A DNA stretch of 64,000 bases from Ignavibacteriales bacterium (GTDB lineage Bacteria > Bacteroidota > Ignavibacteria > UBA10030): assembly GCA_016193365.1 (NCBI GenBank), contig JACPSI010000073.1:1-64000 (forward strand), given 5' to 3'. Of this stretch, positions 53,708 to 57,695 are shown one piece after another; within the stretch, counting starts at the first letter, position 1; every line of letters begins with the position of its first letter. Made by a program: the position numbers and the translations under genes. Under the pieces are notes generated by a model. It worked only from the letters and a program-made list of their open reading frames with translations. It did no database searches and had not been told where the DNA came from.

Positions 53708-54682
53708 ATGCGCGCTATCATCCCCGTTGCAGGCGTTGGCAGCAGGCTGCGTCCGCACACATATACCGTCCCAAAAGTGCTTTTGAACGTCGGTGGTAAA
53801 CCGATTATCGGGCACATTCTCGATAAAGTCATCGAAAACGGCTTTACGGAGGCGACGATTATTGTCGGGTATCTCGGGGAAATGATCAAGGATTACGTCC
53901 TCGGGAATTACAAGATCAAAGTCGACTTTGTCGAACAGGAAGAGCGCCTCGGATTGGGCCATGCGATCTATCTTTCGCGCCACACTTTTTCACGAACACC
54001 AATTCTGATTATCCTCGGAGATACGATTTTCGACGTGGATTTGAAGGCTATGATCGCTCTCGACTCATCGGTGCTTGGTGTGAAACAGGTGGATGACCCG
54101 AGGAGGTTCGGCGTGGCAGAAACGACGAACGGTTATATTTCACGTGTTGTCGAAAAACCTGAAAACCCGACGAGCAATCTTGCCATCATAGGCTTGTATT
54201 ATATCAAACAGCCGGACCTCCTTGTGCAAAGTCTGCGCGAAATCATCAAGAGCAACATTCGGACACGGGGCGAGTTCCAGCTGACGGATGCTCTTCAAAT
54301 GATGATTGAGCGAGGAGAGAAGTTCAAGACCTTTGACATTCAAGGATGGTACGACTGTGGAAAGCCGGAAACGCTCCTTTCTACAAACAGACATTTGCTT
54401 GACAGCAATCCGCTCATGCCAACGTCGAATGATGTTTTGGTAAAACCCCCCGTGTTTGTTTCACCGGAGGCAGTCGTCAAGAATTCGGTCATCGGACCGT
54501 ACACAACGATTGCGGCAGGAGCTCACGTCGAGAATTCCGTTATTCGCAACTCGATCGTCAGCGAGGGTGCAAAAGTAGCCGATGCACTGCTCGAAGACTC
54601 CATTGTCGGGAGCAATGCCACCGTGCGAGGCAGTTACAAGCGCATCAACATCGGAGATTCGTCTGAACTAGAGTTTTATTGA
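53708..54682 (+). CDS. Sugar nucleotidyltransferase (glucose-1-phosphate thymidylyltransferase-like)
   Basis: [38 protein letters not shown] plus hexapeptide-like C-terminus. Confidence 0.9.
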
Positions 54683-54699
54683 TTCATGAAGGAGAACAC

Positions 54700-55842
54700 A
54701 TGAAACACCTCTTTACATCAGAGTCAGTTTCGGAAGGCCACCCGGACAAGGTGTGCGACCAAATTTCGGACGCGATTCTTGATGCGATTTTAGCCCAGGA
54801 TAAAAAAGCACGCGTGGCGTGCGAAAGTTTTGTCACCACCGGCCTCGCTCTCGTCGGCGGAGAAATTACGACCGACGCCTACATCGAAGTGCAGGATGTG
54901 GTCCGACAGGTTATTCGCGATATCGGCTACACGAAGGCCGGCTCGGGATTTGACTCGGAGTCGTGCTCGATCCTTTCAGCGATCCATTCACAATCCCCCG
55001 ACATTGCGCGCGGAGTCGACACGGGAGGAGCCGGCGACCAGGGGATGATGTTCGGTTACGCCTGCACGGAAACTCCGGAATACATGCCGATGCCGATCAT
55101 GTATGCTCACAAACTCGTGCATCGTCTCGCCGACATTCGCAAGAGCCAGAATGGACGAATGTCGTACATCCGGCCAGACGCGAAATCTCAGGTGACCATC
55201 GAATATGAGGGAAAAAAACCTCTTCGAGTGCACACGGTGGTTGTTTCCACACAGCACGACCCTACTGTCTCTCAAAAACAAATAAAAGAAGACGTCGTTG
55301 AACACGTCGTCAAACACGTTATTCCCACGGAAATGCTCGATGCGAAAACGAGATATTTCGTGAATCCCACGGGCAGGTTTGAAATCGGCGGGCCACACGG
55401 CGACAGCGGTCTCACCGGGCGAAAAATCATTGTCGATACGTATGGTGGACGCGCTCCACACGGCGGCGGCGCATTCTCCGGTAAAGATCCCACTAAAGTT
55501 GATCGCAGCGCGGCGTACGCGGCACGGCATCTCGCAAAAAACATCGTCGCGGCCGGATTGGCATCAGAGTGCCAAATCCAGGTTTCCTATGCAATTGGCG
55601 TAGCTGAGCCGATTTCGATCATGGTGCAAACATTTGGAACTGGTACGATCCCCGACCACAAGATAGCAGATATGATCATGGAGAAAGTCGATATGACCCC
55701 GCGCGGTATCATCAAGCGACTCGATCTGCGCCGGCCGATTTATCGCAAAACAGCTGCTTATGGACACTTTGGAAGAAACGAGAAGGAGTTCACGTGGGAA
55801 AAGCTTGACCTTGTGAAGACATTCCAGAAGGCGGCGAGATAA
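54700..55842 (+). CDS. metK: S-adenosylmethionine synthetase
   Basis: [60 protein letters not shown]. Confidence 0.97.
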
Positions 55843-55855
55843 ATGCTGAATGGAA

Positions 55856-55885
55856 ATTGGTGAGTGGTTAATTGGTGAGTCGTTA
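55856..55885 (+). repeat. 15-bp tandem direct repeat; contains left arm (55867-55880) of a 14-bp inverted repeat
   Basis: ATTGGTGAGTGGTTA / ATTGGTGAGTCGTTA (14/15 identical). Confidence 0.85.
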
Positions 55886-55916
55886 GTAGACGAAACAAAA
55901 TTGACACTTTGAAAAG

Positions 55917-56360
55917 ATGAATCAGGAAACTGAATACCACTCGTTAGATTTTGACGGTGCGAAGGTACATGAAGCAGGTGAATCCACCTATAGTTTCGAA
56001 GCTCTTGAAGTCTATCAGAAAGCCAGAAAATTCAGGAAGTCGATTTATTCATTGGCAAAAAAACTGCCCCCGGAGGAAAAGCACAACTTGGTTCCCCAAA
56101 TGTTGGATTGTGCAAGGTCGATGACAAATAACATTGCAGAGGGCCACGGTCGCTTTCATTTTCAGGAAACAATGCAGTTCTTTCGAGTGGCGAGAGGCTC
56201 CGCGCAAGAATTGCTGGATGACCTCAATATATGCCTTGATGAGGGCTATTTTGATGCAGATTTCCTAAACCAATTGAAAAAAGACGGATTCCAAGTTGTC
56301 CGCAGCATTAACGGTTACATTGCATATCTCCGCAAAAGAAAGCAAGAGGCGTCTTCGTAA
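55917..56360 (+). CDS. Four-helix-bundle protein (S23/IVS-encoded family)
   Basis: FEALEVYQKARKFRKSIYSLAKKLPPEEKHNLVPQMLDCARSMTNNIAEGHGRFHFQETMQFFRVARGSAQELLDDL. Confidence 0.88.
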   Translation: MNQETEYHSLDFDGAKVHEAGESTYSFEALEVYQKARKFRKSIYSLAKKLPPEEKHNLVPQMLDCARSMTNNIAEGHGRFHFQETMQFFRVARGSAQELLDDLNICLDEGYFDADFLNQLKKDGFQVVRSINGYIAYLRKRKQEASS

Positions 56361-56381
56361 TCGATTCACCAAGTTTTTTTC

Positions 56382-56413
56382 ACTCACCAATTAACAATTC
56401 ACTACTTACCAAT
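56382..56413 (-). repeat. Right-flank inverted copy of the TTGGTGA-type repeat (arm 56382-56395)
   Basis: ACTCACCAATTAAC is the exact reverse complement of GTTAATTGGTGAGT at 55867-55880; further degenerate unit ACTTACCAAT downstream. Confidence 0.85.
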
Positions 56414-56417
56414 CTTT

Positions 56418-57695
56418 ATGAATGAGCAACCTGGAAAATACAAAGTCAAAGACCTTTCACTCGCCAAAGCAGGAAAGATGCGTATTGAGTGGGCAGAATC
56501 ACGCATGCCGGTGCTGATGGCGCTTAAAGAAAAGTACCGAAAATCAAAACCTCTCAAAGGGTTCAAGATTGCCGGATGTTTGCATGTCACGAAGGAAACT
56601 GCTGTCCTCGTGAACACCTTTGTCGAAGCTGGTGCCGACGTGAGCTGGAGCGGTTGTAATCCATTGTCCACGCAGGATGACGTTGCCGCCGCGCTCGCCG
56701 CAGACGGAGTTTCTATCTTCGCATGGCATGGAATGAACGTCCAGGAATTCTATTGGTGCATCGAAGAGACTCTGAAGTTCAAACCCAACCTCACCCTCGA
56801 CGACGGCGCGGATCTGATTTTCACTGTGCATAACAAGCACAAAGAGCTGATTCCGACTGTCATCGGAGGAACAGAAGAAACAACCACCGGAGTCCACCGC
56901 CTGCGTGCGATGGCAAAAGGCGGAGCTCTTCAGTATCCCGTCATCGCCGTCAACGACGCCGAAACAAAGTGGGACTTCGATAACGTTTACGGAACGGGCC
57001 AATCAACTCTTGACGGTATTCTTCGCTCAACCAGTGTACTAATGGCTGGAAAGAACGTCGTCGTTGCCGGTTTTGGCCATTGCGGACGTGGCGTCGCTCT
57101 ACGCGCAAAGGGGCTCGGGGCGAACGTCATTGTCACAGAAGTGAAGCCGACGGCTGCTCTCAAGGCAACGCTCGAGGGTTTCCGCGTTATGACAATGGAG
57201 GAAGCGGCAAAGATTGGCGACATCTTTATAACAGCAACGGGCGTGAAAGACGTCATTATCGAGAGACATTTTAAGATGATGAAAGACGGCGCCATCGTTT
57301 GCAACACGGGACATTATGATTGTGAAATCAATATCGGCGATTTGGCGAAGCTCAAGAAAAATGTCCGCGAAGTACGCGCTGATAACGAGGAATACACACT
57401 GAAAGACGGACGCCGTATTTACTTGCTTGCCAAAGGACGCCTTGTGAACCTTGCCGCAGCCGAGGGCCATCCATCTGAAGTGATGGACATGTCGTTCGCG
57501 AACCAATTCATGTCCCAGCTTCGTCTTGCCGAGTTGCATAAGAAGGGACAGCGACTGGACAACAAGGTGTACGATATTCCCGTGGAACAAGACCAGGAAA
57601 TCGCGACCGTGAAGCTCCGAACGATGGGATATTCCATTGATAGGCTGACAAAAGAACAGCTTAAATATATGGACGACTACTCAGCAGGCACCTAA
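56418..57695 (+). CDS. ahcY: Adenosylhomocysteinase
   Basis: VKDLSLAKAGKMRIEWAESRMPVL, VVAGFGHCGRGVALRAKGLGANVIVTEV. Confidence 0.96.
   Translation: MNEQPGKYKVKDLSLAKAGKMRIEWAESRMPVLMALKEKYRKSKPLKGFKIAGCLHVTKETAVLVNTFVEAGADVSWSGCNPLSTQDDVAAALAADGVSIFAWHGMNVQEFYWCIEETLKFKPNLTLDDGADLIFTVHNKHKELIPTVIGGTEETTTGVHRLRAMAKGGALQYPVIAVNDAETKWDFDNVYGTGQSTLDGILRSTSVLMAGKNVVVAGFGHCGRGVALRAKGLGANVIVTEVKPTAALKATLEGFRVMTMEEAAKIGDIFITATGVKDVIIERHFKMMKDGAIVCNTGHYDCEINIGDLAKLKKNVREVRADNEEYTLKDGRRIYLLAKGRLVNLAAAEGHPSEVMDMSFANQFMSQLRLAELHKKGQRLDNKVYDIPVEQDQEIATVKLRTMGYSIDRLTKEQLKYMDDYSAGT

Follow-up and report, generated by a model that had tools for sequence, protein, structure and literature searches.

Why should a gene of the kind known from 23S rRNA intervening sequences (IVSs) lie between two protein genes, metK and ahcY, and why should it be bordered by repeats complementary to each other? 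This arrangement occurs in the window analysed here, a stretch of 64,000 nucleotides whose closely matching named records are Ignavibacteriales/Ignavibacteriae of the phylum Bacteroidota. An earlier note on this DNA had proposed a dispersed IVS-like or TIR-bounded element, or else a cassette for processing the mRNA of the SAM cycle, with an ordinary gene carrying chance repeats as the opposing possibility.

An IVP gene enclosed by complementary arrays

The metK-ahcY junction holds a 147-aa ORF that starts 74 nt after the end of metK and stops 57 nt ahead of ahcY (Table 1). The S23/four-helix-bundle pattern previously noticed in it was confirmed, since the ORF is a full-length member of both PF05635 (23S_rRNA_IVP, E 4e-26, 91.7 bits against a cut-off of 33.8) and TIGR02436 ("four helix bundle protein", 83.7 bits against 24); profile matches likewise bore out the two neighbours. 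The AlphaFold model of this protein (IVP; pLDDT 86.6) has helices at residues 31-48, 58-76, 82-109 and 114-146, with the domain at about residues 26-134 and low confidence over the first 24 residues. Among solved S23-family proteins, the model matched 2gsc (Xanthomonas, the closest) and 2rld (Bacteroides).

The perfect 14-nt inverted match reported earlier, GTTAATTGGTGAGT at 55867-55880 with ACTCACCAATTAAC at 56382-56395, was found to be the core of a longer one, which extends to 55848-55880 and 56382-56414 (33 nt per arm, 82% complementary, spacing 501 nt). The left flank does contain a 15-bp tandem duplication (55855-55884, TRF score 55) and the right flank an extra degenerate unit. With four occurrences in the window, the motif TTGGTGAGT exceeds its expectation of 0.47. 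The inverted flank score of the locus is 18, and scores above 15 were reached by just 1.4% of non-IVP genes. In addition, the predicted 575-nt RNA fold closes through the arms (z -2.5), so that complementary termini would enclose the ORF in a loop as in an IVS. Rfam gave no rRNA match in the window, which places the cassette outside any 23S or 16S rRNA gene. The coding content of the 567-nt cassette (55848-56414) is the IVP ORF alone, with no transposase encoded, and none of the PADLOC anti-phage defence models was matched (0 families).

Table 1 Coordinates of the metK-ahcY junction in the window
Feature	Position	Strand	Evidence
metK, upstream neighbour	54679..55842	+	TIGR01034, E 6e-177
Left array, degenerate 7/8-nt (15-nt) units, G-rich/C-poor on the IVP sense strand	55848..55885	+	Inverted match, tandem duplication, TRF
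Left arm core, perfect 14-nt inverted match GTTAATTGGTGAGT	55867..55880	+	Sequence
IVP/S23 four-helix-bundle ORF, 147 aa	55917..56360	+	PF05635, TIGR02436, AlphaFold, closest solved fold 2gsc
Extra degenerate right-array unit GATTCACCAAG	56363..56373	+	Sequence
Right array ACTCACCAATTAACAATTCACTACTTACCAATC, inverted partner of the left array	56382..56414	+	Inverted match; duplex -35.2 kcal/mol
ahcY, downstream neighbour	56418..57695	+	TIGR00936, NF004005

Inverted arms accompany IVP genes across families and phyla

At a single locus, 14 perfect bases in AT-rich flanks are not overwhelming, and an ordinary gene with chance repeats might be supposed. For the family as a whole, flanks were scored by comparing the 230 nt that precede the domain with the 200 nt that follow the stop and taking their best local inverted match. 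The main sample comprised 130 distinct IVPs, all full-length and with flanking sequence, drawn from about 50 genomes belonging to the same family and order. Their median score was 14.5, versus 8.5 when flanks were mispaired (left of i, right of j); the non-inverted comparison and the non-IVP ORF controls (n = 278) each gave a median of 8.5 as well. A score of at least 12 was reached by 67% of the IVPs versus 5.8% of the non-IVP controls, a contrast weakened by a few top-scoring controls situated at IVP-hit loci (L073, L079). The Mann-Whitney p of 5e-35 overstates the certainty of this difference, because the loci are related and hence not independent. About one third of the IVPs had no detectable inverted flank.

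Two further samples gave similar proportions at this threshold: 71% of 66 copies across Bacteroidota and 69% of 74 copies from named genomes of many phyla. Mispaired flanks in the many-phyla sample reached 12 in 13.5% of cases, probably due to unit types common to related Verrucomicrobia. Clear arms were seen at named loci of Verrucomicrobia (L334, L351), Planctomycetota (L347, L364), Nitrospirae (L337), Omnitrophota (L315) and Zixibacteria (L360). The statistics of the three samples refute chance repeats, a reading to which we give next to no credence; the observation is confirmed as real and generalises beyond the window. The IVP cassette was present in nearly every related genome, and four-helix-bundle IVP genes were found in 187 of the 248 Bacteroidota genomes sampled and in many other phyla. 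Searches of phages returned no match, and those of plasmids 19 distant ones.

Autocorrelation within the arms peaked at lags of 7, 14 and 21, and more weakly at 8. The arms are tandem arrays of 7- or 8-nt units whose sequence is specific to the locus, left and right agreeing at each. About a dozen PF05635 matches occur in the genome of the window itself, several of them fragmentary or frameshifted (for example on contig C116). All copies inspected, bar one cut by a contig end, had inverted flanks of their own with a different unit each: CGTTATTCGTTATC / AATAACGATTAACG on C153, between sdhA- and sdhB-like genes, AATTGTAAATTGAAAG / CAATTTTCAATTTACAAT on C116 and ATGGATTGATGGATTG / CATCCAAAAATCCATAC on C63. 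Conversely, 417 kb of this genome contained no inverted pair scoring at least 15 with 7/8-nt periodicity on both arms other than those at IVPs (C35, C116, C87, C63, C61). The IVP locus on C61 (L234:485-1143) has extra arrays, in several blocks complementary to one another, and looks as though a piece of its flank had been duplicated.

These copies, together with the many IVPs with inverted flanks in relatives, uphold one part of the earlier reading, a dispersed IVS-like cassette outside rRNA. Another part, a conventional TIR-bounded element, is not supported, as the ends are not common to the copies and no transposase is present. The expectation of further TTGGTGAGT-flanked copies also failed: the motif has 18 matches genome-wide, the same as its reversed control, and was ruled out as a shared element end. 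Since arm sequences are peculiar to each cassette, it does not serve as a motif of the element in general.

Between co-directional genes, the cassettes measure 434-573 nt (5-95%; median 485), with a median arm length of 32 nt and arms about 420 nt apart (median). They occupy the intergenic gap, with outer edges of the arms at a median of 4 nt past the upstream stop and 14 nt ahead of the next start, and the right arm begins at the IVP stop codon or no more than 3 nt away in one third of the copies in co-directional pairs. The 5' (left) arm is G-rich/C-poor in 164 of 180 loci, versus 24 of 56 control upstream regions taken from window genes. An alternative open frame was ruled out as a general property of IVPs, the +2 frame being stop-free in only about 3%.

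The two arms change together at shared sites

A second explanation holds that the IVP is an ordinary, vertically inherited host gene whose product is resident in particular operons as a regulator or an RNA-binding protein. The arrays would then be sites at which it binds or at which mRNA is processed, and selection on an RNA stem would keep them complementary. Several results agree with it. Eighteen sites with both neighbours homologous were common to 2-9 genomes, in the widest cases across several families; they include metK-ahcY and, named by eye from the sequences, gatB-tpiA, ftsA-ftsZ and spmA-spmB. Many copies look vertically inherited at such fixed sites (metK-ahcY, ftsA-ftsZ, gatB-tpiA). 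Between close pairs, dN/dS was 0.03-0.14, a sign of strong purifying selection, and the IVP protein is therefore functional, whatever becomes of the cassette. In co-directional gene pairs, the IVP was sense in 98 cases and antisense in 5, a conservative ratio, as gene calling by longest ORF misassigned at least two genuine sense copies (L015, L018). Moreover, the RNA duplex energy was -32.8 for own arms versus -10.6 for mispaired ones.

The arms at shared sites are not static. The unit switches between species at one and the same site, and both arms switch together; at gatB-tpiA, for instance, the unit is GAGTAGTT on both sides in some species, GAGCCATT in another and GAGTCTTT in two more. The mean score was 14.8 for the two arms of one copy and 11.7 for arms combined across species at the same site, and a left arm paired best with its own right arm in 19 of 41 cases, versus 8 expected. 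If selection acted on a sense-strand RNA stem, G-U mismatches should exceed A-C mismatches. No such strand-specific excess was found among the arm mismatches (171 vs 193, p 0.27; 94:88 in another count), and the arms give no sign of RNA-level selection through G-U compensation. The missing excess speaks against the host-gene explanation. It leads us to favour, by inference, copying from arm to arm over selection on RNA pairing, and leaves an RNA-processing step without support from the sequences.

Empty, scarred and filled sites

Comparison of metK-ahcY among relatives substantiated the earlier suggestion that the insert splits a normally adjacent pair. Many relatives have a plain junction of 28-50 nt; others are filled by an IVP with quite different units (L011, L015, L018, L032, G019, G017, L091, L092), and others again retain an array without an ORF (G006 (L025), G018 (L027), L028, L035). 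Empty and scarred sites occur within one family and even one genus, to which both G006 (scarred) and G019 (filled) belong, which is difficult to reconcile with a resident host gene. The G018 scar is a collapsed hairpin of 7-nt units. The L025 scar combines an inner inverted pair with an unpaired outer TTCAACCA-type array, and these two array types suggest successive array generations. At L031 (metK-ahcY of G012), a different small ORF (...TKIFDFFARCKTFAQDVF...) lies between near-identical AAAAAGAAA-type repeats.

In the IVP tree, the metK-ahcY copies cluster, yet are interleaved with L103 and L183 from another site. Two comparisons between IVPs also argue against a fixed host gene. Related IVPs occupy different sites (L085 vs L103). 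L103 and L183 have the same neighbours and 74% identical IVPs and lie in opposite orientation relative to the host genes; the flip is either an inversion across the arms or an independent insertion.

A further objection comes from two loci of different families (L053 and L057), where the cassette lies inside a gene that motifs identify as restriction-methyltransferase-like, between a ...GVYYTPEYIV...GKLLYE block and an IDIACGSGSF motif. The insert of 459-462 nt leaves the host frame, which differs from that of the IVP, uninterrupted. In homologues, the same loop has no insert (L235, L238), a degenerate cassette (L257) or REP-like palindromes (L256). This loop (L053, L057, L255-L267) is a hotspot where unrelated repeat elements (the IVP cassette, REP-like palindromes and simple repeats) are inserted in frame, with lengths of 0-462 nt that are all divisible by three. 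We regard the host-gene explanation as rather unlikely.

With respect to movement, no target-site duplication was seen, the flanks at empty sites being strongly diverged, and the sdhA-sdhB copy had no alignable flank in the sister species G001 for an empty-site comparison. No near-identical copies were found at different sites of one genome (best, 82% protein identity), and no transposition event was caught in the material compared. Active transposition has less support than loss, vertical retention and turnover of the arrays.

Candidate partners in mobility

The hairpin-like ends and the strong strand asymmetry could indicate a single-stranded DNA element that owes its mobility to a Y1 transposase (HUH, IS200/TnpA_REP-type) acting in trans through recognition of the folded ends, and IVP copy number is correlated with Y1 copy number in a set of 61 genomes (rho 0.61, p 1e-7). 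However, once GIY-YIG copy number is controlled for, the partial correlation drops to 0.27. Since GIY-YIG correlates with IVP as well as Y1 does, the Y1 correlation is not specific and may reflect general mobile-element load. Seven genomes have IVPs but no Y1 match, and the copies have no shared end sequence, so we consider mobilisation by Y1 improbable.

Small GIY-YIG endonuclease genes of the same genomes (L197, L185, L198, L205, L209, L213) exceed chance in their inverted flanks, which score above 15 in 26% versus 1%. These flanks are palindromic and REP-like, for example TGAGCGAAGTCGAAGG, and mark a second, different type of one-gene cassette. Lacking 7-nt arrays, GIY-YIG genes were ruled out as another cargo of the IVP-type arrays.

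The IVP model also matched Avd (4dwl) and a DGR RNP (8ub7), with probability 1.00, TM 0.6-0.85 and about 11% identity, which raises the idea of a DGR/Avd-like retroelement in which the IVP, as a relative of Avd, acts with a reverse transcriptase. Against this, the genome of the window (G000) had 0 RVT_1 matches despite about 12 IVP matches, in a search with PF00078 that a diverged reverse transcriptase could escape, and copy numbers of RVT and IVP were not correlated (rho 0.05). The reverse-transcriptase link was thus largely ruled out for this genome, and such a retroelement seems to us very improbable.

Discussion

We consider it probable that 55848-56414 is a dispersed IVS-like cassette, slowly moving or selfish, whose arms are kept alike by copying. 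It consists of one IVP/S23 ORF that would sit in the loop of two complementary arms, as in a 23S rRNA IVS. The purifying selection and the sense orientation mentioned under the host-gene explanation count towards this reading too; against it count the vertical look of many copies, the third of IVPs with no inverted flank seen and the missing traces of a transposition event. Such a cassette may travel with its arms, be kept vertically at favoured operon junctions and be lost repeatedly. The likeness of the arms could arise when one is copied off the other, by hairpin-templated repair or gene conversion, combined with repeat slippage. In a read-through transcript, the arms would form a stem around the IVP cistron, which, by analogy with rRNA IVSs, could be a substrate of RNase III. 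The IVP oligomer probably binds the folded arm ends.

The data suggest an overlooked family of slowly moving elements whose ends are set by self-complementarity instead of any fixed sequence. More tentatively, and as a possibility we would not yet call likely, IVP cassettes may be widespread minimal mobile elements of one structural protein and two short-repeat arrays, with ends recognised by mutual complementarity and 7/8-nt periodicity, arm identity regenerated by arm-to-arm copying, and rRNA IVSs as their best-known members. A puzzle is posed by two arrays that lie 0.4-0.5 kb apart and stay complementary although free to change in sequence. The "four helix bundle protein" family, which has no known role, gains a genetic context outside rRNA as one half of a two-part cassette.

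Among known systems, TIR transposons and MITEs are similar in their inverted ends around a unit and their presence or absence at sites, but the IVP cassette has no transposase and no common end sequence, and target duplication was not seen. REP/RAYT systems likewise combine dispersed extragenic inverted repeats with a small gene, and REP-like repeats are present in these genomes; however, REPs are compact, conserved palindromes associated with a Y1 transposase, whereas IVP arms are variable and widely spaced. The Avd protein of diversity-generating retroelements resembles the IVP in its modelled four-helix fold, but no RVT_1 match accompanies the IVPs of this genome, and a template/variable repeat was not noticed.

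TAACTGA heptamers form intergenic 7-nt tandem arrays near genes in Beggiatoaceae, Cyanobacteria and Bacteroidetes (PMC4679880). They differ from the arms in being one fixed heptamer, direct and not paired-inverted, and that paper draws no link to IVP ORFs. In the open-access literature, we found no publication that connects IVP genes located outside rRNA to paired inverted arrays, which is weak evidence of novelty. IVP ORFs have been reported in rRNA inserts of CPR bacteria (PMC11270868), and in Flavobacterium a four-helix gene is placed between homologues of gmk and nadD (PMC5524665).

The closest relatives of the cassette are the 23S rRNA IVSs of Coxiella, Leptospira and others, which share an S23/IVP ORF looped by complementary termini, a length of about 0.43-0.5 kb and a patchy presence. 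In Coxiella, the IVS measures 428-444 nt, its termini form a stem of 28 bp, its S23 ORF is preceded by heptamer repeats, and RNase III cuts it (PMC4990558). Unlike the rRNA IVSs, the present cassettes lie between or inside protein genes, many per genome, each with its own locus-specific 7/8-nt arms, and the rRNA intervening sequences are thereby placed within a much larger group.
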